The translations under genes and the position numbers were made by a program. Below are positions 2,542 through 12,381 of a stretch of 64,000 bases of DNA, in pieces. The stretch covers positions 1 to 64,000 of the forward strand of contig CAISEB010000032.1 in the NCBI GenBank assembly GCA_903884235.1. The letters run 5' to 3'. Position 1 is the first letter of the stretch; the number at the start of each line of letters is the position of its first letter. The DNA is from an uncultured Pseudomonadota bacterium. GTDB taxonomy: Bacteria; Pseudomonadota; Gammaproteobacteria; Steroidobacterales; Steroidobacteraceae. The notes beneath the pieces were generated by a model. The model did no database searches. It saw nothing but the letters and a program-made list of their open reading frames with translations, and was not told the DNA's origin.

Positions 2542-3708
2542 TCAGCTCGCCCGTGCGGCGATGTCGAGGCCCGCGCGCAGGTCGTCCACGAGATCGTCCG
2601 CGGACTCGATGCCGACCGAGAGGCGCAGCAGGCTGTCGGTGATGCCCGCGCGCGCGCGTGCCTCCGGTGCCATGGCCGCATGCGTCATCGTCGCCGGGTG
2701 CGCGATCAGGCTCTCGACGCCGCCGAGCGACTCGGCGAGCGAGAAGTACTCGACGCCCTCGACCAGCGCCTTGACTGCCGCGACGCCGCCCTTGAGTTCG
2801 AAGCTGACCATCGCGCCGAATGCCTTCTGCTGGCGCGCGGCGAGCGCGTGGCCCGGGTGGTCCGGCAGGCCCGGGTAGTAGGTGCGCGCGACCGCCGGGT
2901 GCGAGGCCAGCAGGTCGACGATGCGCTCGGCATTGGCGAGGTGCTGCTGCAGGCGCGGATGCAGGGTCCGCAGGCCGCGCAACGTCAGGAAGCTGTCGAA
3001 GGCGGCGCCCGTGAGGCCGAGGCAGTTGCCCCACCAGGCGAGTTCCTCGTGCAGGGCCTGGGTCGCGGCGATCACCGCGCCGCCGACGACGTCCGAATGG
3101 CCGTTCAGGTACTTGGTGGTCGAGTGCACGACGATGTCGGCGCCGAGCGCGATCGGCTGCTGCCAGACGGGCGACAGGAACGTGTTGTCGACGACGACGA
3201 GGGCACCGGCGGCCTTCGCGAGCGCGCTCGCCTGCTCGAGGTCGGTGATGCGCAGCAGCGGGTTCGATGGCGTCTCGAGCCAGACGAAGCGCGGCTTCGT
3301 GGCGAGCGCCGCCGCAAAGGCCCTGAGGTCGGTTGGATCGACGAACTCGACCTTCAGGATCCCCTGCCGCTCGAAGCCCGTGAACAGCCGGAACGTGCCG
3401 CCATAGCAATCGCGGGGCACGAGCACGGTCTCCCCCGCCCGGCACAGGTGCGCGACCAGCGCGACGGCGGCCATGCCGGAGGCGGTCACGACCGCGCCCG
3501 CACCACCCTCGAGGTCGGCGAGCGCGCCGCCGAGCGCGTCGCGCGTCGGGTTGCCGGAGCGCGAGTAGTCGTAGCCGCGCTTCACGCCGAACGACTCGAA
3601 CGAGAATGTGGACGTCAGGTGGATCGGCGGCACGACGGCGCCGTGCTGCGTGTCGGAATCGAGCGCGGCACGGACGAGGCGGGTACGGGAATCGGCGGGA
3701 CGGGTCAT
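2542..3708 (-). CDS. metB: Cystathionine gamma-synthase / O-succinylhomoserine thiol-lyase
   Basis: A 388-residue PLP enzyme of the Cys/Met metabolism family. It is expected to condense an O-acylhomoserine with cysteine, or with sulfide, in methionine synthesis. The PLP lysine is Lys199 in VVHSTTKYLNG, and the substrate-binding motifs YDYSRSGNPT and VDNTFLSP are present. The start codon overlaps the stop of metX by four bases (ATGA), so the two are translationally coupled and lie behind the same SAM riboswitch. MetB, MetC, MetZ and gamma-lyases are hard to separate by sequence. The metX neighbour and the missing trans-sulfuration partner favour MetB or MetZ. Confidence 0.92.
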   Translation of the reverse strand: MTRPADSRTRLVRAALDSDTQHGAVVPPIHLTSTFSFESFGVKRGYDYSRSGNPTRDALGGALADLEGGAGAVVTASGMAAVALVAHLCRAGETVLVPRDCYGGTFRLFTGFERQGILKVEFVDPTDLRAFAAALATKPRFVWLETPSNPLLRITDLEQASALAKAAGALVVVDNTFLSPVWQQPIALGADIVVHSTTKYLNGHSDVVGGAVIAATQALHEELAWWGNCLGLTGAAFDSFLTLRGLRTLHPRLQQHLANAERIVDLLASHPAVARTYYPGLPDHPGHALAARQQKAFGAMVSFELKGGVAAVKALVEGVEYFSLAESLGGVESLIAHPATMTHAAMAPEARARAGITDSLLRLSVGIESADDLVDDLRAGLDIAARAS

Positions 3709-4718
3709 CGAGCGGGTCCTTCGAGGCAGTCGGCGAAGATCGGCCGCAGCGCGTCGCCTTCCTTCAGGAACGCGTCGTGGCCGTAGATGGAATCGAGGGT
3801 GGCGAGCCGGCCGCACGGCAGGCGCGCGACGAAGGCCTGCATGTCGGCGTACGGGACGAGCTCGTCCTCGCGCACCGCGACCGCGGTGACCGCGGGCCGG
3901 ACGCTCGTCGCGTCGATGCGGAACAGGTCGATGGACTCCGACAGCGCGACGAACGACTCCGGCTTGTACTGGGCGACGTAGGCGTCGCCGCGCGCGAACA
4001 GGTAGTCCTCGATCGGCAGGCGGAAGCGATCCGCGTCGCTCCGCGCCTCGCCGGAGAACCGCGCCTCGAACTCGCGCGGCGTGCGGTAGGTGCACATCGC
4101 GAGCGCGCGCGCGAGCTTGAGGCCGCCATTGGCGTCCCCGGTGCGGATCCCGAAGCGGACGATCTCGCGCTCGACGGCGCGCCAGCCGGACGCCATGGGA
4201 TGCACGCGATCGGCGGCGGAGATCACGAGCAGCCGCGGCGCGATAGTCGGGTGGCGCGAGCCGATCGCGAGCGCGACCTGCGCGCCGTAGGAGGCCCCGA
4301 CGACCGCATGCAGCGGCTCGCCGATCGCGGCGACGACCGCGGCGATCGCGTCCGCCTGGTCGAAGGCCGACAGCGACGGGAACGTCGCCCCGCCGCGCTC
4401 GGGCGCCGTCGAATCCCCGCTGCCGCCGAGGTAATCGACGCCGAGCACCCGGAACCGGTCGGTGTCGAGCGCACGACCGCGGCCGACGACCGGCGACCAC
4501 CAGCCGCGGTCCTCGGCGCCGACGCGCCGGTATCCCGAGATGCCGCCGATCGCGAGCACGAGCGGTGCGCCCGCGGGACCGACGATCCGCCAGGCCATCT
4601 GCCCGTGCTCGAGCGCGCCGCCGTGGAAGAGCGGGAACGGCATCGGCAGCCGCACGATCCCCTCGACGGGTTCGTCGATGGACGCCAGGGTGGCGGGCAA
4701 TTCGGCGGGGGCGCTCAT
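3705..4718 (-). CDS. metX: Homoserine O-acyltransferase, MetX family (probably O-succinyltransferase)
   Basis: A 337-residue alpha/beta-hydrolase-fold enzyme that acylates the hydroxyl of homoserine, the first step of methionine synthesis. The nucleophile elbow is GASYGAQ with Ser143. The other triad members are probably Asp285 (VREDELVP) and His314 (YGHDAFL). GAGGAG sits just upstream of the ATG at 4718. Xanthomonad members of this family have been reported to use succinyl-CoA, and this protein, divergent and shorter than classical MetX, may do the same; that is an inference. It heads a two-gene unit with metB under an S-box riboswitch, so high S-adenosylmethionine should shut it down. Confidence 0.9.
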   Translation of the reverse strand: MSAPAELPATLASIDEPVEGIVRLPMPFPLFHGGALEHGQMAWRIVGPAGAPLVLAIGGISGYRRVGAEDRGWWSPVVGRGRALDTDRFRVLGVDYLGGSGDSTAPERGGATFPSLSAFDQADAIAAVVAAIGEPLHAVVGASYGAQVALAIGSRHPTIAPRLLVISAADRVHPMASGWRAVEREIVRFGIRTGDANGGLKLARALAMCTYRTPREFEARFSGEARSDADRFRLPIEDYLFARGDAYVAQYKPESFVALSESIDLFRIDATSVRPAVTAVAVREDELVPYADMQAFVARLPCGRLATLDSIYGHDAFLKEGDALRPIFADCLEGPAR

Positions 4719-4780
4719 CGTTCACTCCTCGGGACCATGCGCTGGCGCATTCTCCCGACCGCCCCGGGGGCGGTACCGGT
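4719..4780 (-). promoter_or_regulatory. Candidate expression platform between SAM aptamer and metX
   Basis: Between the aptamer and the metX start are two strong hairpin-forming stretches. One is ACCGCCC-CCG-GGGCGGT (4758-4774). The other is ATGCGCTGGCGCAT (4737-4750), which sits about 18 bases before the start codon. Neither is followed by a U-tract, so a classical intrinsic terminator is not evident. Control by sequestering the GAGGAG ribosome site or by Rho is more likely. This is inference from base pairing only. Confidence 0.4.
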
Positions 4781-4810
4781 CCGGCCCGGGATGACCCGGT
4801 CGGACGGCGA

Positions 4811-4912
4811 CCCATCTACCGGACCCGTGGGGTCCGCAGGAGTTGGCACCTGGACGCTTCGCGCAGGTTGCCCCGGCTTCAAAGGGCCAGTCCCTCAGCC
4901 GGTCTAGATGGG
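4811..4912 (-). ncRNA. SAM-I (S-box) riboswitch aptamer
   Basis: Read on the minus strand, this leader holds the conserved S-box core blocks in order: GAGGGACTGGCCC, TGAAGCC, GGGCAACC and AGGTGCCAACTCC. A P4 stem CGGACCC-CAC-GGGTCCG follows. The ends close with P1, CCCATCTA pairing with TAGATGGG. The aptamer binds S-adenosylmethionine and controls the metX-metB mRNA that begins about 90 bases downstream. S-boxes are typical of Firmicutes and known from only some Gram-negative groups, including Xanthomonads. Confidence 0.87.
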
Positions 4913-4979
4913 CGCGCGAAGTCTACGGAGGCCCCCCGCGCGCCGTCAAGAAGCCTTGCCGGGTGCGCGTGGTTGTATT

Positions 4980-5003
4980 AATGTATTAGCACGTTAATAC
5001 ATT
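4980..5003. promoter_or_regulatory. Palindromic operator of the histidine operon
   Basis: A perfect inverted repeat with 9-base arms, AATGTATTA and TAATACATT, separated by GCACGT. The TGTATTA element also occurs as a direct repeat immediately before it (4974-4980). It is AT-rich in very GC-rich surroundings and ends 9 bases before the start of the TrpR-fold repressor gene. It probably overlaps the promoter (TTGTAT at 4973 is a weak -35 candidate). It is most simply the binding site through which that repressor controls itself and hisGDCBHAFI. Confidence 0.75.
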
Positions 5004-5012
5004 GGCTCAACG

Positions 5013-5321
5013 ATGAAGATCCACCGCCCCTTGAGCCCCCGCCAGGAGGCCCTCGCCGAACGGGCGCTCTATCAGGCGATCCTGACGCTCGAGACCGCCG
5101 ACGAGTGCCGGGCCTTCTTCCGCGACCTGTGCACGCCTGCCGAACTGCAGGCCCTGGCGGACCGCTGGTCCGTCGTCGAACTGCTCCGGCAGGACCTCCC
5201 CTACCGGGAGATCCACCGCCTGACCGGGGTCAGCGTGACGACGATCGGTCGCGTGGCCCGGTACCTGATCGCCGGCAACGGCGGCTACGAGCTCGCCGCC
5301 GACCGGACCCGGGAGACCTGA
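5013..5321 (+). CDS. hisR: TrpR/YerC-YecD family repressor, probable histidine regulator
   Basis: A 102-residue all-helical DNA-binding protein of the TrpR-like YerC/YecD family. The helix-turn-helix is in the C-terminal half, around PYREIHRLTGVSVTTIGRVA. Homologues next to hisG in Xanthomonads and Firmicutes are predicted histidine-operon repressors. Here the gene is the first of the operon, three bases before hisG, and a perfect palindrome lies just upstream. No Shine-Dalgarno sequence is visible before the ATG (GGCTCAACG), so the mRNA may be leaderless or nearly so. Whether histidine itself is the co-repressor cannot be told from sequence. The symbol is by analogy with predicted regulons. 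Confidence 0.82.
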   Translation: MKIHRPLSPRQEALAERALYQAILTLETADECRAFFRDLCTPAELQALADRWSVVELLRQDLPYREIHRLTGVSVTTIGRVARYLIAGNGGYELAADRTRET

Positions 5322-5324
5322 ACC

Positions 5325-6224
5325 ATGGATCGTGAAGAACGCCTGCGCGTCGCCGTGCAGAAGAGCGGCCGGCTGACCGACCATTCGCTCGACCTGATGA
5401 GTCGCTGCGGCCTCAAGTACAGCCGCGGCAAGGACCAGCTTCTGTGCTACGGCGAGAACATGCCGCTCGACGTGCTGCTGGTGCGCGACGACGACATCCC
5501 CGACCTCGTGCGCGAGGACGTCTGCGACCTCGGCATCGTCGGCGGCAACGTCGTGCACGAGAAGCGCCTCGGCTTCATGGCACGCGGCGTGGAGCCGCTG
5601 TTCGAGGTCCTGCAGCCGCTCGACTTCGGCCGCTGCCGGCTGTCGATCGCGGTGCCGGACCAGTTCCGCTACGAGGGCCCGGCCAGCATCGATGGCCTTC
5701 GGATTGCGACCACGTACCCGCACACGGTCGCCGACTGGCTCGAGCGCACGGGCATCAAGGCCGAGGTCGTCACCCTCTCCGGTGCCGTCGAGATCGCGCC
5801 GCGACTCGGGCGCGCCGACGTCATCTGCGACCTGGTCTCCACCGGCAGCACGCTGCAGGCCAATCACCTGCGCGAGGTCGAGGTCGTGCTGCAGAGCCAG
5901 GCGATGCTGATCCGCACGCCGGTGCCGCTGCCGCAGGCCAAGGAGGACTGGCTGCGCCGGATCCTGCTGCGCATCGATGGCGTGCAGCTGGTCACGGAGA
6001 GCAAGTACATCATGCTGCACGCGCCGCGCGCGGCGCTGCCGGAGATCCGGCGCCTGCTGCCCGGTTCCGAATACCCGACGATCGTCCCGCTCGAGGGCAC
6101 CACCGAGAAGGTCGCGGTGCATGCCGTGTGCCGCGAGAACGTCTTCTGGGAAACCCTCGAGAGCCTGAAGGCCGCCGGGGCGAGCGCGCTGCTCGTGCTG
6201 CCGGTCGAGAAGATGCTGCCGTGA
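5325..6224 (+). CDS. hisG: ATP phosphoribosyltransferase, long form
   Basis: A 299-residue HisG that condenses ATP with phosphoribosyl pyrophosphate, the committed step of histidine synthesis. Its length and the C-terminal part after about residue 225 show it is the long form, with an ACT-like regulatory domain that binds histidine for feedback inhibition. Typical features are VAVQKSGRL at the N terminus, DLGIVGGNV, and the pyrophosphate-binding region DLVSTGSTLQANHL. It sits three bases behind the repressor gene and overlaps hisD. Long-form HisG does not need HisZ, and none is present. Confidence 0.97.
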   Translation: MDREERLRVAVQKSGRLTDHSLDLMSRCGLKYSRGKDQLLCYGENMPLDVLLVRDDDIPDLVREDVCDLGIVGGNVVHEKRLGFMARGVEPLFEVLQPLDFGRCRLSIAVPDQFRYEGPASIDGLRIATTYPHTVADWLERTGIKAEVVTLSGAVEIAPRLGRADVICDLVSTGSTLQANHLREVEVVLQSQAMLIRTPVPLPQAKEDWLRRILLRIDGVQLVTESKYIMLHAPRAALPEIRRLLPGSEYPTIVPLEGTTEKVAVHAVCRENVFWETLESLKAAGASALLVLPVEKMLP

Positions 6225-7531
6225 CGCTCGCGACCTACCGCTGGTCCGGGCTCGACGCCGCCGCGAGGGCGGCGCTGCTGCGCCGTCCCGCCCAGGACGA
6301 CAGCGCCGCGCTCGCCGCGCGCGTCGAGTCCATCGTCGCCGACGTGCGCGCGCGCGGCGATGCGGCACTCGCCGAGCTCACGGAGCGCTACGACGGCGTC
6401 ACCCTCGAGACATTGCAGGTCGGCGCGGTGGAGTTCCTGGCGGCCGAGGCCGCGCTGCCGGACGTGGCGCACGCGGCAATCGACCGCGCCATCGCCAACG
6501 TGCGCCGCTTCCACGAGGCGCAGCGCCTCCCGCCGCTGTCCATCGAGACGAGCCCGGGGGTCCGCTGCGAGCGGATCGAGGTCCCGATCGAGGCGGTGGG
6601 CCTGTACGTGCCGGCCGGCTCCGCGCCGCTGCCCTCCGCCGCGATCATGACCGCGGTCCCGGCGGCGATCGCCGGCTGCGCGGTGCGCGTGCTGTGCACG
6701 CCGCCGCGGCGCGACGGTCGCGCCGACCCCGCGGTGCTCGTCGCGGCCCGGCGCGCCGGCATCACGGAGGTCTACAAGGTCGGCGGCGCACAGGCGATCG
6801 CCGCGATGGCCTACGGCACCGCTTCGATTCCCAAGGTCGACAAGATCTGCGGACCGGGCAACGCCTGGGTGACCGCGGCGAAGCTCGTCGTCGCGCGCGA
6901 CCCGCTCGGCGCCGCGCTCGACCTGCCGGCCGGCCCGTCCGAGGTCCTCGTGATCGCCGACGACTCGGCGCGCCCCGCCTTCGTCGCCGCGGACCTGCTT
7001 GCGCAGGCCGAGCACGACCCCTCCGCGCAGGTGATCCTGGTGACGACCTCGGCGGCGCTCGGCGCGGCGGTCGTCGCGGACGTGGAGCGCCAGCAGGCCT
7101 CGCTCAGCCGGCGCGCGATCACCACCGCGGCGCTCAAGGCCAGTCGCGTGATCCTCGTCGAGGACCTGCCGACCGCGTTCGCCGTCAGCAATGCCTATGC
7201 GCCGGAACACCTGATCCTCGAGATCGACGGGGCGCGGGACTGGCTGCCGTCCGTGCGCGCCGCCGGATCCGTGTTCCTCGGGCACTGGTCGCCGGAGTCG
7301 ATCGGCGACTACTGCAGCGGGACGAACCACGTCCTGCCGACCTATGGCTATGCGCGCGCGTTCTCGGGGCTGTCCGTCGGCGACTTCATGCGCCGCATCA
7401 CCGTGCAGGAACTGACCCCGGCGGGGCTCGCCGATCTCGGGCCCGTGGCCCAGACCCTCGCCGGACTCGAGGGCCTCGATGCCCACGCCGCGGCGGTCAC
7501 GGTGCGCCTCGCGGCGCTCGGCGCGCCATGA
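6221..7531 (+). CDS. hisD: Histidinol dehydrogenase
   Basis: A 436-residue zinc enzyme that oxidises histidinol to histidine in two NAD-dependent steps, the end of the pathway. Motifs seen include GLYVPAGSAPLPSA, the KVDKICGPGNAWV nucleotide-binding region, DLPAGPSEVLVIAD, and SGTNHVLPTYGYAR near the zinc site. The start is a GTG at 6221 that overlaps the hisG stop in the arrangement GTGA. The frame stays open far upstream, but that extension only shadows hisG. The stop overlaps the hisC start (ATGA), so translation of the three genes is coupled. Confidence 0.96.
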   Translation: MTLATYRWSGLDAAARAALLRRPAQDDSAALAARVESIVADVRARGDAALAELTERYDGVTLETLQVGAVEFLAAEAALPDVAHAAIDRAIANVRRFHEAQRLPPLSIETSPGVRCERIEVPIEAVGLYVPAGSAPLPSAAIMTAVPAAIAGCAVRVLCTPPRRDGRADPAVLVAARRAGITEVYKVGGAQAIAAMAYGTASIPKVDKICGPGNAWVTAAKLVVARDPLGAALDLPAGPSEVLVIADDSARPAFVAADLLAQAEHDPSAQVILVTTSAALGAAVVADVERQQASLSRRAITTAALKASRVILVEDLPTAFAVSNAYAPEHLILEIDGARDWLPSVRAAGSVFLGHWSPESIGDYCSGTNHVLPTYGYARAFSGLSVGDFMRRITVQELTPAGLADLGPVAQTLAGLEGLDAHAAAVTVRLAALGAP

Positions 7532-8586
7532 GCCTCGTCGAGCGCCTCGCGCGACCCGAGATCCTCGCGCTCGAGCCGTACTCGCATGCGAGCTGGGATC
7601 CGACGCTCGAGCGCCTGCATGCCAACGAAAACCCGTGGCCGGCGTACGGGGATGGCACGCCATCCGGCCTGAACCGCTACCCCGAGCCGCACCCGCACGA
7701 GGTCGAGGCACGGCTCGCGGCGCTGTACGGCGTGCGGCCCGACCAGCTGATCGCGGGCCGGGGCTCGGACGAGGCGATCGACCTGCTGACGCGGGCGTTC
7801 CTCGCGGCCGGGCGCGATGCGGCGATCGTGTGCCCGCCGACGTTCGGCATGTACGCGGTCGCGACCCGCATCCAGGGCGCGCGCATCGTCGAAGTGCCGC
7901 TCAGGACTGCAGATTGGTCGCTCGACGAGCCGGCACTGCTCGCGGCAGCGACCGAGGACGTCAAGCTCGTGTTCCTGTGCTCGCCCGGCAATCCCACGGG
8001 GTGTGCGCTTTCGAAGGAGTCGATCGAGCGGCTGCTGGGCGCCCTCGCCGGCCGCGCGTTCGTCGTCGTCGACGAGGCCTACGCGGAATTCTCCAGCGAG
8101 GCCTCGTTCGCAAGCCGCCTCGCCGAGTTCCCGAACCTCGTCGTGCTGCGCACGCTGTCGAAGGCCTATGGTCTCGCCGGCGCGCGCTGCGGCGCACTGC
8201 TCGCGGATGCCGCACTCGTCGCGCTGCTCGGCCGGATCATCCCGCCGTACTCGATGGCGACCCCGACCTGCGACGCGGTCCTCGCGGCGCTCGCCCCGGC
8301 TGGGCTCGCCGAGGCCGCGACGCGCATCGACCTGCTGAAGGGCGAGCGCTCGCGCCTCGCCCAAGGCCTCGCCGGCCTCGCACTCGTCCGGCACGTGCAT
8401 CCGAGCGACGCCAACTTCCTCTACGTCGAGTGCATGGACGCGAGCGTCGTCCTCGCACGCGCCCGCGATGCGGGCCTGCTCATCCGGGACTTCAGCCGTG
8501 GCGCCCGCACCCCCGGCGCGGTGCGCATCACCGTCGGCACGCCCGCCCAGAACGACCGCCTGCTCGAGGCCCTCGCACGACCATGA
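7528..8586 (+). CDS. hisC: Histidinol-phosphate aminotransferase
   Basis: A 352-residue class I/II PLP aminotransferase that converts imidazole-acetol phosphate to histidinol phosphate. Recognisable parts are LHANENPWPAYG at the N terminus, CSPGNPTG, VVDEAYAEF and the PLP lysine Lys212 in TLSKAYGLAGAR. The ATG at 7528 overlaps the hisD stop and the TGA overlaps the hisB start. Members of this fold can also act on aromatic amino acids, but the position between hisD and hisB fixes the assignment. Confidence 0.97.
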   Translation: MSLVERLARPEILALEPYSHASWDPTLERLHANENPWPAYGDGTPSGLNRYPEPHPHEVEARLAALYGVRPDQLIAGRGSDEAIDLLTRAFLAAGRDAAIVCPPTFGMYAVATRIQGARIVEVPLRTADWSLDEPALLAAATEDVKLVFLCSPGNPTGCALSKESIERLLGALAGRAFVVVDEAYAEFSSEASFASRLAEFPNLVVLRTLSKAYGLAGARCGALLADAALVALLGRIIPPYSMATPTCDAVLAALAPAGLAEAATRIDLLKGERSRLAQGLAGLALVRHVHPSDANFLYVECMDASVVLARARDAGLLIRDFSRGARTPGAVRITVGTPAQNDRLLEALARP

Positions 8587-9653
8587 CCCCCACCCTCTTC
8601 ATCGACCGCGACGGCACGCTCGTCGAGGAACCCCGCGACCAGCAGGTCGACCGACTCGACAAGGTGCGCCTGGTCCCGGGCGTGATCCCGGCGCTGCTCG
8701 CCATCCAGGCCGCCGGCTACCGGCTCGTCATGGTGACCAACCAGGACGGCCTCGGCACCGCGAGCTTCCCTGAGCCCGCGTTCCGCGAGACCCAGGACTT
8801 CATCCTCGCGCTGTTCGCCTCGCAGGGCATCACCTTCGAGGCGGTGCTCGTCTGCCCGCACTTCGCGGCGGATGGCTGCGACTGCCGCAAGCCGAAGACG
8901 CGCCTCGTCGACGAGTACCTCGCCAGCCATCCGATGGAACGGGCCCGCTCGGCCGTCATCGGGGATCGCGACACCGACCTCGAGCTCGCGGCCCGCCTCG
9001 GCATCGCCGGCATGCGCATCGCGACCGGCGGCGACCCGAGGCACACCTGGCCCGTCGTCATGGGCTGCCTGACCGAGCGCCATCGCATCGCCAGCGTCGA
9101 GCGCCGCACGCGCGAGACCGCGATCAGCGTCCGCGTCGACCTCGACCACGAGAGCCCGGCGCGCATCGCCACCGGCATCGGCTTCTTCGACCACATGCTC
9201 GAGCAGGTGGCGAAGCACGGCGGCTTCGGCCTCGAGCTCGAGTGCAACGGCGACCTTGCCGTCGACGAGCACCACACCGTCGAGGACTGCGCGCTCGCGC
9301 TCGGCCAGGCGCTGCGCCAGGCACTCGGCGACAAGCTCGGCATCGCCCGGTACGGCTTCCTGCTGGCGATGGACGAGGCCGAGGCGCAGGTCGCGATCGA
9401 CCTGTCGGGACGCGCCTACTTCGTGTTCGAGGGCTCCTTCGGCCGCGACGCGGTCGGTGGCCTGCCGACGGAGCTCGTGCCGCACTTCTTCCGCAGCCTG
9501 GCCGACTCGCTCGGCTGCGCCCTGCACCTCAGCGTGCGTGGCGAGAACACGCACCACATGGTCGAGAGCTGCTTCAAGGGCGTCGGCCGGGCGCTGCGCC
9601 AGGCGTTCCGCATCGAAGGCTCGACGCTGCCCTCGAGCAAGGGCGTGCTGTGA
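8583..9653 (+). CDS. hisB: Bifunctional histidinol-phosphatase / imidazoleglycerol-phosphate dehydratase
   Basis: A 356-residue fusion. The N-terminal 165 or so residues are a HAD phosphatase, with LFIDRDGT carrying Asp8 and Asp10 and the zinc-binding loop CPHFAADGCDCRKPK. The remainder is the dehydratase, with GFFDHMLEQ, DEHHTVEDCALALG and ENTHHMVESCFKG supplying the metal-binding histidines. It catalyses two non-consecutive steps of histidine synthesis. The fusion is characteristic of gammaproteobacteria and a few other groups. It overlaps hisC at its start and hisH at its stop. Confidence 0.98.
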   Translation: MTPTLFIDRDGTLVEEPRDQQVDRLDKVRLVPGVIPALLAIQAAGYRLVMVTNQDGLGTASFPEPAFRETQDFILALFASQGITFEAVLVCPHFAADGCDCRKPKTRLVDEYLASHPMERARSAVIGDRDTDLELAARLGIAGMRIATGGDPRHTWPVVMGCLTERHRIASVERRTRETAISVRVDLDHESPARIATGIGFFDHMLEQVAKHGGFGLELECNGDLAVDEHHTVEDCALALGQALRQALGDKLGIARYGFLLAMDEAEAQVAIDLSGRAYFVFEGSFGRDAVGGLPTELVPHFFRSLADSLGCALHLSVRGENTHHMVESCFKGVGRALRQAFRIEGSTLPSSKGVL

Positions 9654-10249
9654 GCGACGTCGCGATCATCGACAACGGCGGCGGCAACGTCGCCTCCGTG
9701 CGCTATGCGCTCGGCCGGCTCGGCGTCGAGGCAGCGGTCACGACCGACCCGGCGTTGATCCGTGGCGCGCGTCGCGTGATCCTGCCCGGCGTCGGCGCGG
9801 CGGCCGATGCCATGCAGCGCCTGCGCGCCGCGGGACTCGACGCGCTGGTGCCGACGCTGCGCCAGCCGGTGCTCGGCATCTGCCTCGGCATGCAGCTCCT
9901 GTTCGAGTCCTCCGCGGAGGGCGACACCAACTGCCTCGGCGTCATCCCCGGACGCGTATCGCGCCTCGCGGGCGGCCCGGGACTGCGCGTGCCCCACATG
10001 GGCTGGACGCGCCTGCTGCCGGTGCAGGAGTCGCCACTGCTCGCCGGCATCGGCGCGGACGGGTACGCTTACTTCGTGCACAGCTTCGCCGCACCCGTGG
10101 GACCCGCGACCGTCGCGAGCGCCGACCATGGTGGCCCGTTCACGGCGATCGTCAGCCACGGCAACTTCCACGGCGCGCAGTGCCACCCCGAACGCTCCGG
10201 CGCGACCGGCGCGCGGCTGCTGCGCAACTTCCTCGAACTCGACGGCTGA
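9650..10249 (+). CDS. hisH: Imidazole glycerol phosphate synthase, glutamine amidotransferase subunit
   Basis: A 199-residue class I glutamine amidotransferase that passes ammonia to HisF. The catalytic cysteine is Cys78 in GICLGMQLLFESS, and the histidine-glutamate pair lies in QCHPERSG near the C terminus. The oxyanion-strand region VILPGVGAAADAM is present. The start is GTG at 9650, overlapping the hisB stop as GTGA. The gene ends four bases before hisA, so its partner hisF is one gene away, the usual gammaproteobacterial order. Confidence 0.96.
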   Translation: MSDVAIIDNGGGNVASVRYALGRLGVEAAVTTDPALIRGARRVILPGVGAAADAMQRLRAAGLDALVPTLRQPVLGICLGMQLLFESSAEGDTNCLGVIPGRVSRLAGGPGLRVPHMGWTRLLPVQESPLLAGIGADGYAYFVHSFAAPVGPATVASADHGGPFTAIVSHGNFHGAQCHPERSGATGARLLRNFLELDG

Positions 10250-10253
10250 GCCC

Positions 10254-10994
10254 ATGCAACTGATACCCGCGATCGACTTGAAGGGCGGCCGCTGCGTGCG
10301 CCTGTACCAGGGCGACTTCGGCGCCGAGACGCGCTACGCGGTCACCCCGGAGGGGCTCTACGAGCGCTTCGCGGACTTGGGCGCCCGCTGGCTGCACGTC
10401 GTCGACCTCGACGGCGCCAAGGATGGCGCGCAGGCGCACCTGCCGGTGATCGCCGCCCTCGCCGCGCGTGGCCGCCTGAAGCTGCAGGTCGGCGGCGGGC
10501 TGCGCGAGCGCGCGGCCGTGGAGCGCACGCTCGCGGCCGGTGCATCCCGCGCCGTCATCGGCTCGCTCGCCGTCACCGACCCCGACCTCGTCGCCGCCTG
10601 GCTGCGGCACTTCGGACCCGAGGCCATCGTGCTCGCGCTCGATGTGCGCATCGCGGCGGACGGCGTGCCGCGCCTCGCGACGCACGGCTGGGTCGAGCAG
10701 TCGCCGGTCGCGCTCTGGGACGCGGTCGCCCGCTACCTGCCGGCGGGGCTGCGGCACGTGCTGTGCACCGATGTCGGCTGCGACGGCGCGCTCGCCGGCC
10801 CGAACTTCGACCTGTACGTGGAGGCGACGCGTCGCTTCCCGGGCATCGAATGGCAGGCCTCCGGTGGCGTGCGCCACGCGCGCGACCTGTGGACGCTGCA
10901 CGGCGGCGGCCTCGCCGCGGCGGTCAGTGGCCGCGCGCTGCTCGAGGGACTGATGACTGCAGAGGAGCTCTCGCCATTCCTGCCCGCCGCCTGA
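10254..10994 (+). CDS. hisA: ProFAR isomerase
   Basis: A 246-residue (beta/alpha)8 barrel that isomerises ProFAR to PRFAR. The catalytic Asp8 lies in [12 protein letters not shown], the second acidic residue is in [15 protein letters not shown], and phosphate-binding loops are QVGGGLRE and ASGGVR. The [11 protein letters not shown] strand is typical. Its last 19 bases overlap the proposed hisF start and carry the Shine-Dalgarno for that gene (AGAGGAG at 10961-10967). Confidence 0.97.
10961..10978 (+). promoter_or_regulatory. Ribosome binding site and ATT start codon of hisF
   Basis: AGAGGAG, then nine bases, then ATT at 10976-10978. No ATG, GTG or TTG in the hisF frame lies anywhere that would give a normal HisF N terminus. 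The spacing and the match of the Shine-Dalgarno to the 16S tail make this a convincing non-canonical initiation site. Confidence 0.75.
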
Positions 10995-11755
10995 TTCCCT
11001 GCCTCGACGTCCGCGACGGCGCCGTCGTCAAGGGCGTGCGGTTCCGCGACCATCGGGTGGTCGGCGAAATCGAGGAACTCGCCGCGCGCTACCGCGATGC
11101 CGGCGCCGACGAACTCGTGTTCTACGACATCACCGCGAGCCCCCATGGCCGCACGGTGGATCGCTCGTGGGTGTCGCGTGTCGCACGCCTGCTCGACATC
11201 CCGTTCTGCGTCGCCGGAGGCATCCGCTCGGTCGCGGACGCCGAAGCCGTGCTCGGTGCCGGGGCGGAGAAGATCTCGGTGAACTCACCCGCCCTGTCGG
11301 ACCCCGCGCTGATCACCGCGCTCGCCGAGCGCTTCGGCTCGCAGTGCGTGGTGGTCGGCATCGACAGCCAGACCGTCGCCGGCAACGGCGGTACGCGCTG
11401 GGAGGTGCACCAGTTCACGGGCGACCCCGCGCGCAGCCGCGCGACGCCGCGCGACACGCTCGCCTGGGTCCGCGAGGCGCAGGAGCGCGGCGCGGGCGAG
11501 ATCGTCCTCAACTGCATGGCGAGCGATGGCGTGCGCTCGGGCTACGACCTGCTGCAGCTCGCCGCCGTGCGCGCGGTGTGCGAGGTGCCGCTGATCGCCT
11601 CCGGCGGCGCAGGCGCGATGGAGCACTTCCGCGACGTGTTCCGCGCCGCGGACGTCGACGGCGCGCTCGCCGCGAGCGTGTTCCACCTCGGCACCATCGC
11701 GATCCCGGACCTGAAACGCTACCTGACCCACGCAGGCATCGAGGTGAGGCCATGA
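10976..11755 (+). CDS. hisF: Imidazole glycerol phosphate synthase, cyclase subunit (ATT start)
   Basis: A 259-residue (beta/alpha)8 barrel that uses HisH-derived ammonia to make imidazole glycerol phosphate and AICAR. With initiation at ATT 10976 the protein reads [15 protein letters not shown], aligning residue for residue with E. coli HisF (MLAKRIIPCLDV) and placing the catalytic aspartate at position 11. The second catalytic aspartate is in [14 protein letters not shown]. The nearest upstream in-frame ATG would add about 42 residues of hisA shadow. Later starts would delete the first barrel strand and its aspartate. An ATT start is very rare outside infC. The stop overlaps hisI by ATGA. 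Confidence 0.93.
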
Positions 11756-12381
11756 ACGCCGCGGACATCGACGGACTCGACTGGACCAAGGGCGGCGGAC
11801 TGCTGCCCGCGATCGTGCAGGATGCCGACGACGGCCAGGTGCTGATGCTCGGCTACATGAACCGCGACGCGCTCACCGCCACGCTCGGCGGCGGACGCGT
11901 GACGTTCTGGAGCCGCAGCCGCGCCGAGCTCTGGGTCAAGGGCGACACCTCCGGCAACACGATCGAGGTGCAGGGCGTCACCGCGGACTGCGACCGCGAC
12001 ACGATCCTCGTGCTCGGCCGCCCGGCGGGCCCCGTCTGCCACACGGGCGCACCGACCTGCTTCCACGGTCAGCCGTCCTCGGCCGCCACGGACCTCGGCT
12101 TCCTGCTGCACCTCGAGAAGATCATCGCGGCCCGGATCGCCGAGCACCCGGATTCGAGCTACACGGCGACGCTGCATGCGCGGGGCCTGACGCGCATGGC
12201 GCAGAAGGTCGGCGAGGAGGGCCTCGAAGTCGCGCTCGCGGCGGTCACGGCCGGGGACGGCGAATTCATCGGCGAGTCCGCGGATCTCGTGTTCCACCTG
12301 CTGCTGCTGCTGCGCGCACGCGGCCTCGCGATCGCGGACGTCGTGAAGGAACTGGTCGACCGCCACGCCGCGCGCCCCTGA
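11752..12381 (+). CDS. hisI: Bifunctional phosphoribosyl-AMP cyclohydrolase / phosphoribosyl-ATP pyrophosphatase
   Basis: A 209-residue HisIE fusion performing steps two and three of histidine synthesis. The N-terminal cyclohydrolase carries [27 protein letters not shown] and the metal-binding CDRDTILV and GPVCHTG regions. The C-terminal MazG-like pyrophosphatase, from about residue 110, carries [13 protein letters not shown] and [13 protein letters not shown]. The start overlaps the hisF stop. It is the last gene of the his operon; a GC-rich hairpin follows within 20 bases. Confidence 0.97.

Follow-up and report, generated by a model that had tools for sequence, protein, structure and literature searches.

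A probable 28-bp tandem operator for the histidine repressor HisR upstream of the histidine operon in Steroidobacteraceae

Which protein recognizes the palindrome located directly upstream of a small TrpR-fold gene that heads a histidine biosynthesis gene cluster, and how many copies of that protein occupy the DNA at a time? The window analyzed here is a stretch of 64,000 nucleotides (64 kb) of contig CAISEB010000032.1, derived from an uncultured bacterium. The 80 relatives of the repressor protein in named genomes, the loci of which served for names only, were in many cases labeled merely as a Proteobacteria or Gammaproteobacteria bacterium; the finer names were mostly Steroidobacteraceae, Steroidobacter, and Povalibacter, besides a single Lysobacteraceae and a single Nevskiaceae label. 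By these named relatives, the host belongs to the family Steroidobacteraceae (order Steroidobacterales, Gammaproteobacteria).

The palindrome AATGTATTA-N6-TAATACATT reads AATGTATTAGCACGTTAATACATT in full, and the preliminary description of the window was accurate in presenting it as a perfect 9-base palindrome that ends 9 bases before an ATG (at 5013). When up to three mismatches to AATGTATTAGCACGTTAATACATT were permitted, the 64 kb contained a single match, and the 100 dinucleotide shuffles contained none. The features of the locus are summarized in Table 1.

Table 1. Features of the hisR upstream region and the adjoining gene row in the window.
Feature	Position	Strand	Basis
Palindrome AATGTATTA-N6-TAATACATT	4980..5003	.	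Shuffle test
Primary 20-bp HisR site TGTATTAGCACGTTAATACA (predicted)	4982..5001	.	14/14 to TGTANTARNNNNYTANTACA; no other exact match genome-wide
Additional half-site TGTATTA, 8 bp 5' of the primary site	4974..4980	+	6/6 match; offset conserved in relatives
Second, overlapping 20-bp HisR site TGTATTAATGTATTAGCACG (predicted)	4974..4993	.	2 mismatches to the motif; 25.6 bits by PWM
-35 hexamer TTGCCG of the hisR promoter (predicted)	4956..4961	+	TTG position in 54/88 loci
-10 hexamer TAATGT (predicted), inside the operator	4979..4984	+	TAAYGT conserved over 88 loci
Predicted transcription start (A), leader 22 nt	4991..4991	+	7 bases after the -10 hexamer; purine in 99% of 88 loci
hisR, TrpR-family repressor, 102 aa	5013..5321	+	PF01371 E 5.7e-26; TIGR02531 73.7 bits
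hisG	5325..6224	+	PF01634, TIGR00070
hisD, hisC, hisB (HAD + IGPD), hisH, hisA, hisF, hisIE	6221..12381	+	Pfam match per reading frame; hisF start codon uncertain

The TrpR-fold gene noted earlier downstream of the palindrome was identified as hisR by its matches to PF01371 and TIGR02531 (YerC/YecD; cut-off 42.2 bits), whereas the protein scored only 30.9 bits against the TrpR equivalog TIGR01321, of which the cut-off is 67.25 bits. The closest solved relatives by profile were 3frw, 3kor, and 3g1c (E 3e-20 to 2e-19), and the best TrpR structure entry matched with an E of 0.002. 3G1C is called a HisR by Ashniev et al. (2022; PMC9413887). In the window, hisR is the first gene of the row and is followed by hisG to hisIE. 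We regard the locus as the putative operator-promoter of a hisR-hisGDCBHAF(IE) operon, the genes of which are presumably co-transcribed.

HisR is described from Firmicutes and from other genomes, 51 gammaproteobacterial and 11 alphaproteobacterial ones among them; the proteobacterial his operons mostly begin with hisR, and the HisR site directly precedes this gene (PMC9413887). According to the same paper, histidine-dependent DNA binding was measured only for HisR of Ruminococcus gnavus. The proteobacterial consensus printed there, TGTAnTArnnnnyTnTTACA, is not self-complementary, though the sites are called palindromic; the printed form is probably a misprint. We scored sites with the self-complementary form of this 20-bp motif, TGTANTARNNNNYTANTACA, which has 14 fixed positions; the window site differs by one mismatch from the motif as printed (compared by eye). 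The locus thus resembles the published HisR operators in having a TrpR-family HisR first in the his operon, a palindromic 20-bp site of the proteobacterial motif directly upstream, and local control (see below). Most likely, the palindrome is the binding site of HisR, a repressor known to sense histidine, which would thereby control its own gene and the his genes behind it.

The conservation of the palindrome in relatives, named beforehand as a check, was found across the family just 5' of hisR. The exact motif TGTANTARNNNNYTANTACA occurred in 77 of 200 Steroidobacteraceae genomes (once in 74 and twice in 3), while its reversed control occurred in 1. For 41 of the 77 genomes, an exact site was confirmed within 150 bp upstream of hisR. 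Among the 162 HisR-positive genomes of the family, we examined 90 loci, comprising 30 (including the window) and 60 that were hand-picked for genus spread. The best site upstream of hisR matched 14, 13, 12, and 11 of the 14 fixed positions in 41, 36, 11, and 2 loci, respectively; 12 or more positions were matched in 88 of the 90 upstream regions vs. 1 of 1800 single-base shuffles. Note that the loci are related by descent and these counts are not independent. Together with the HisR system already in print (PMC9413887), the persistence of the palindrome directly before hisR supports the autoregulation and repressor control proposed from the window alone.

The exact site was absent from all 38 family genomes in which HisR was not matched, 18 of which were inferred to be HisR-less (Fisher p 8e-10). 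Among 19 HisR-less genomes tested, hisG was matched in only 2 (one fragment at a contig edge and one match with an E of 9e-4) and hisD in 8, several of the hisD matches having 34-43% identity or lying at a contig edge. Because the operon and the site are mostly missing together, their co-absence is not independent evidence, and we rejected the joint loss of the site and HisR as an independent proof.

The TGTATTA direct repeat mentioned in the preliminary description is genuine, with its copies at 4974-4980 and 4982-4988, and was underrated there: the first copy is half of a second site, the 8-bp phase of which is conserved. To score the surroundings of the primary site, every offset up to 20 was scanned in the 88 loci with a primary site of at least 12/14 (the 2 loci with 11/14 were left out), and a half-site was called strict when 5 or more of its 6 positions matched. 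Strict extra half-sites were found at -8 in 44 of 88 loci and at +8 in 28 of 85, and any other offset yielded 0-3. By side, 35 loci had one upstream only, 19 downstream only, 9 on both sides, and 25 on neither. With the threshold lowered to 4/6 and the count confined to the offsets -8 and +8, 85 of the 88 loci possessed an extra half-site on one side. At least one strict extra half-site was present in 20 of the 22 genera of the family; genus g22 had none in its 4 loci. In three loci (L018, L005, and L029), longer arrays were seen with 8-bp-spaced half-sites on both sides, leaving room by eye for three dimers.

A symmetric position weight matrix (PWM), trained on the same primary sites that it scores, had a positive mean at -8 and +8 only, besides the primary position. 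Of the two 8-bp-shifted sites, the higher-scoring one exceeded 5 bits in 84 of 88 loci, whereas elsewhere this was the case in only 1 locus (-16) and 2 loci (+16). The PWM columns outside the primary site, taken alone, peaked at the same two shifts. In the window, the primary site scored 33.7 bits and the downstream-shifted (+8) site -5.6 bits, such that a second site is seen on the upstream side alone. The strength of the primary site and that of the extra half-site showed no trade-off (Spearman -0.03), and compensation between the two was rejected. As the extra half-sites of the family loci lie at exactly 8 bp, the operator is probably a tandem of 28 bp that accommodates two overlapping dimers.

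A comparable step can be seen in a well-known relative. TrpR shares the fold and the 20-bp operator geometry with the system described here, and the E. coli trp operator contains, by eye, an ACTAG repeat at 8 bp. Half-site scoring of the trp operator gave 4/6 at -8 but also at two other placements, such that the 8-bp step did not stand out. The window differs from the trp operator in carrying whole extra half-sites, by which the operator is lengthened to 28 bp, and its protein differs from TrpR in falling below the TIGR01321 cut-off; published HisR responds to histidine. The structure entry 1trr is a Trp repressor, and PDB 1TRR is a complex in which TrpR is bound in tandem, offset by 8 bp. Two TrpR dimers bind in tandem on synthetic operators (PMC8745587). 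From the tandem binding on synthetic operators and the ACTAG repeat, we infer by analogy that two HisR dimers occupy 4974-5001. The HisR operators in PMC9413887 are 20-bp sites, unlike the probable 28-bp tandem of the window; a search of the main text of that paper yielded no tandem HisR sites. Nor did we find such an architecture described in the literature searched, which consisted mostly of openly readable papers. Thus, the repressor-controlled hisR-his system is of an already published kind, and the tandem architecture is a new detail.

Outside Steroidobacteraceae, 20 loci were fetched at the class level, of which L226 and L234 were dropped (10/14, no credible site); among the 18 retained, the primary site of 3 loci matches no more than 11 positions. 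In these loci from other gammaproteobacterial families, a strict extra half-site was detected in 11 of 18 (6 upstream and 6 downstream, one locus having both), vs. 4 matches at all other offsets together. In the families f13 and f163, on the other hand, only 1 of 11 loci had a strict extra half-site, though 9 of the 11 primary sites were perfect. The difference between 63/88 in Steroidobacteraceae and 1/11 in f13/f163 gave a Fisher p of 1e-4, which is descriptive only, as related sequences were treated as independent. The 8-bp tandem is therefore common and not universal. Since most primary sites in f13 and f163 are perfect without a second half-site, HisR control does not generally require a pair of dimers.

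These single-site families bear on the main rival to two dimers, namely that only one HisR dimer sits on the 20-bp palindrome and the shifted half-sites are alternative registers for it or decayed duplicates, never occupied at the same time. Such a reading agrees with the published motif, which is one 20-bp palindrome (PMC9413887), with the mostly solitary perfect sites of f13 and f163, and with the 25 family loci devoid of a strict extra half-site. It accounts poorly, however, for a step of exactly 8 bp on either side that recurs over nearly all genera of the family and in other gammaproteobacterial families, for the signal carried by the flanking PWM columns alone, and for the same step between the ACTAG copies in E. 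coli. We consider a lone dimer with alternative registers unlikely, albeit worth keeping in mind.

Seven loci from outside the class were also inspected. L252 has an 11/14 site with a perfect +8 half-site, and the other six have no credible site of the motif used here. L241, L242, and L255-L258 were left out as their genomes had already been used, and L261-L270 as they fell under the family cut-off. No TGTANTA site was seen in the HisR loci L243, L244, L245, and L248 of the family f197, which lies outside the class; by eye, these loci carry the inverted repeat GTTCCACT-N10-AGTGGAAC just before hisR, L244 imperfectly. No site was found in the fifth f197 locus, L246. The inverted repeat suggests that the four loci may have a different operator, GTTCCACT-N10-AGTGGAAC.

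The preliminary description held that the palindrome overlaps the only promoter-like sequence. The overlap stood, as the comparison of relatives brought out a weak, conserved, predicted promoter on the + strand that overlaps the operator; the word "only" did not, as a scan of 4719-5120 with the sigma-70 consensus returned no + strand match and a single match on the - strand (4949-4920). Measured from the leftmost half-site, a TTG lay 18 bases upstream in 38 of the 88 loci and 19 bases upstream in 16, and in these 54 loci a gap of 17 or 18 bases separated it from TAAYGT. The positions of TAAYGT were conserved as T in 95%, A in 99%, A in 80%, T or C in 100%, G in 99%, and T in 92%. Anchoring on the leftmost half-site, which shifts upstream at a 4/6 match, favors the promoter pattern; the offset counts are independent of this anchor. 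TAAYGT explains why the TA of the first half-site is conserved but leaves the TGTA of that half-site and all of the downstream copies unexplained, and the direct repeat is therefore best read as operator rather than promoter.

This promoter geometry also bears on the proposal that the hisR mRNA is leaderless or nearly so, with its 5' end no more than a few bases from the ATG. The absence of a visible Shine-Dalgarno sequence before hisR, on which that proposal drew, was borne out in the window, and such sequences are rare in the relatives: a 4-base match precedes hisR in 13 of 90 family loci and a 5-base match in 1, while the corresponding figures before hisG are 38 and 12 of 79 loci, for which the start of hisG could be placed by a crude rule. 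Nevertheless, the TTG-N17/18-TAAYGT spacing predicts a 22-nt leader here and leaders of 10-58 nt (median 25) over the 88 loci. Furthermore, the distance from the primary site to the aligned start codon runs from 2 to 47 nt over the same loci, and the start codon is thus not tied to the operator. On the promoter geometry, we rejected a leaderless mRNA, which now seems very improbable; the hisR leader is probably short (about 22 nt) and free of a Shine-Dalgarno sequence.

At the Rfam gathering score, the only match in 3500-7000 was a SAM riboswitch (RF00162, 87.6 bits, 4914-4809 on the - strand). This riboswitch sits in the leader of a divergent operon composed of an alpha/beta hydrolase-fold gene, metX-like by reading, and a gene for a Cys/Met PLP enzyme. 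With the - strand promoter-like site beginning about 25 bp from the operator and the riboswitch on the same opposite strand, the palindrome might be imagined as a two-way operator shared with the metX-like operon. Such sharing is extremely improbable, however, as the operator does not overlap the promoter-like site and the metX-like operon has a SAM riboswitch of its own. The attenuator of enterics (the His leader, RF00514) likewise subjects a his operon to control by histidine supply, but no RF00514 was found in 3500-7000 at the gathering score. That a repressor governs the his genes instead of an attenuator, as first put forward for the window, is consistent with this result and is published for HisR (PMC9413887).

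How far does the predicted control by HisR extend? When up to three mismatches were allowed, a search of the 4.1-Mb genome returned 18 sites vs. 27 for the reversed control, and none beyond the operator stood out; a wider regulon was accordingly rejected. Sites with two or fewer mismatches, besides the primary site, numbered two, one of them being the overlapping site at 4974-4993 and the other looking unrelated. As the sole other site of this quality looks unrelated, control by HisR looks local and confined to a single operator region. The other site (L236, 1501-1520) is a perfect palindrome, TGTTGTAGTTAACTACAACA, upstream of a 98-aa ORF, and the next ORF resembles a GntR-type regulator by reading its translation. 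TGTTGTAGTTAACTACAACA is probably the own operator of a separate autoregulated system.

Altogether, we consider it likely that two histidine-bound HisR dimers bind the 28-bp operator and block the promoter, with local control and a short leader lacking a Shine-Dalgarno sequence. Two overlapping 20-bp palindromes, shifted by 8 bp, would form the operator at 4974-5001. Since both the -10 hexamer and the predicted start site lie within the operator, bound HisR would silence hisR and the his genes at once, and, when histidine falls, the dimers would leave the operator. What the sequences show directly is the palindrome and its conservation, the 8-bp phasing, the promoter geometry, and the identity of the genes; for the window, we infer the control by histidine, the occlusion of the promoter, the double occupancy, the start site, and the co-transcription.

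At its core, the locus exemplifies a regulatory system already in print, and the exact 8-bp tandem of half-sites is the added point. We lean towards the view that in Steroidobacteraceae and some other Gammaproteobacteria HisR dimers bind cooperatively in tandem (two and sometimes three) on 8-bp-phased half-sites over the -10 box and thereby respond more steeply to histidine than in the single-site families. If so, the tandem binding of TrpR known from synthetic operators would be written into the natural operators of its sister family, and the single-site lineages would serve as built-in controls. The tandem, common in the family and rare in f13 and f163, offers a natural comparison set for TrpR-type tandem dimers in the cell, and the same set bears on the steepness of amino-acid control.
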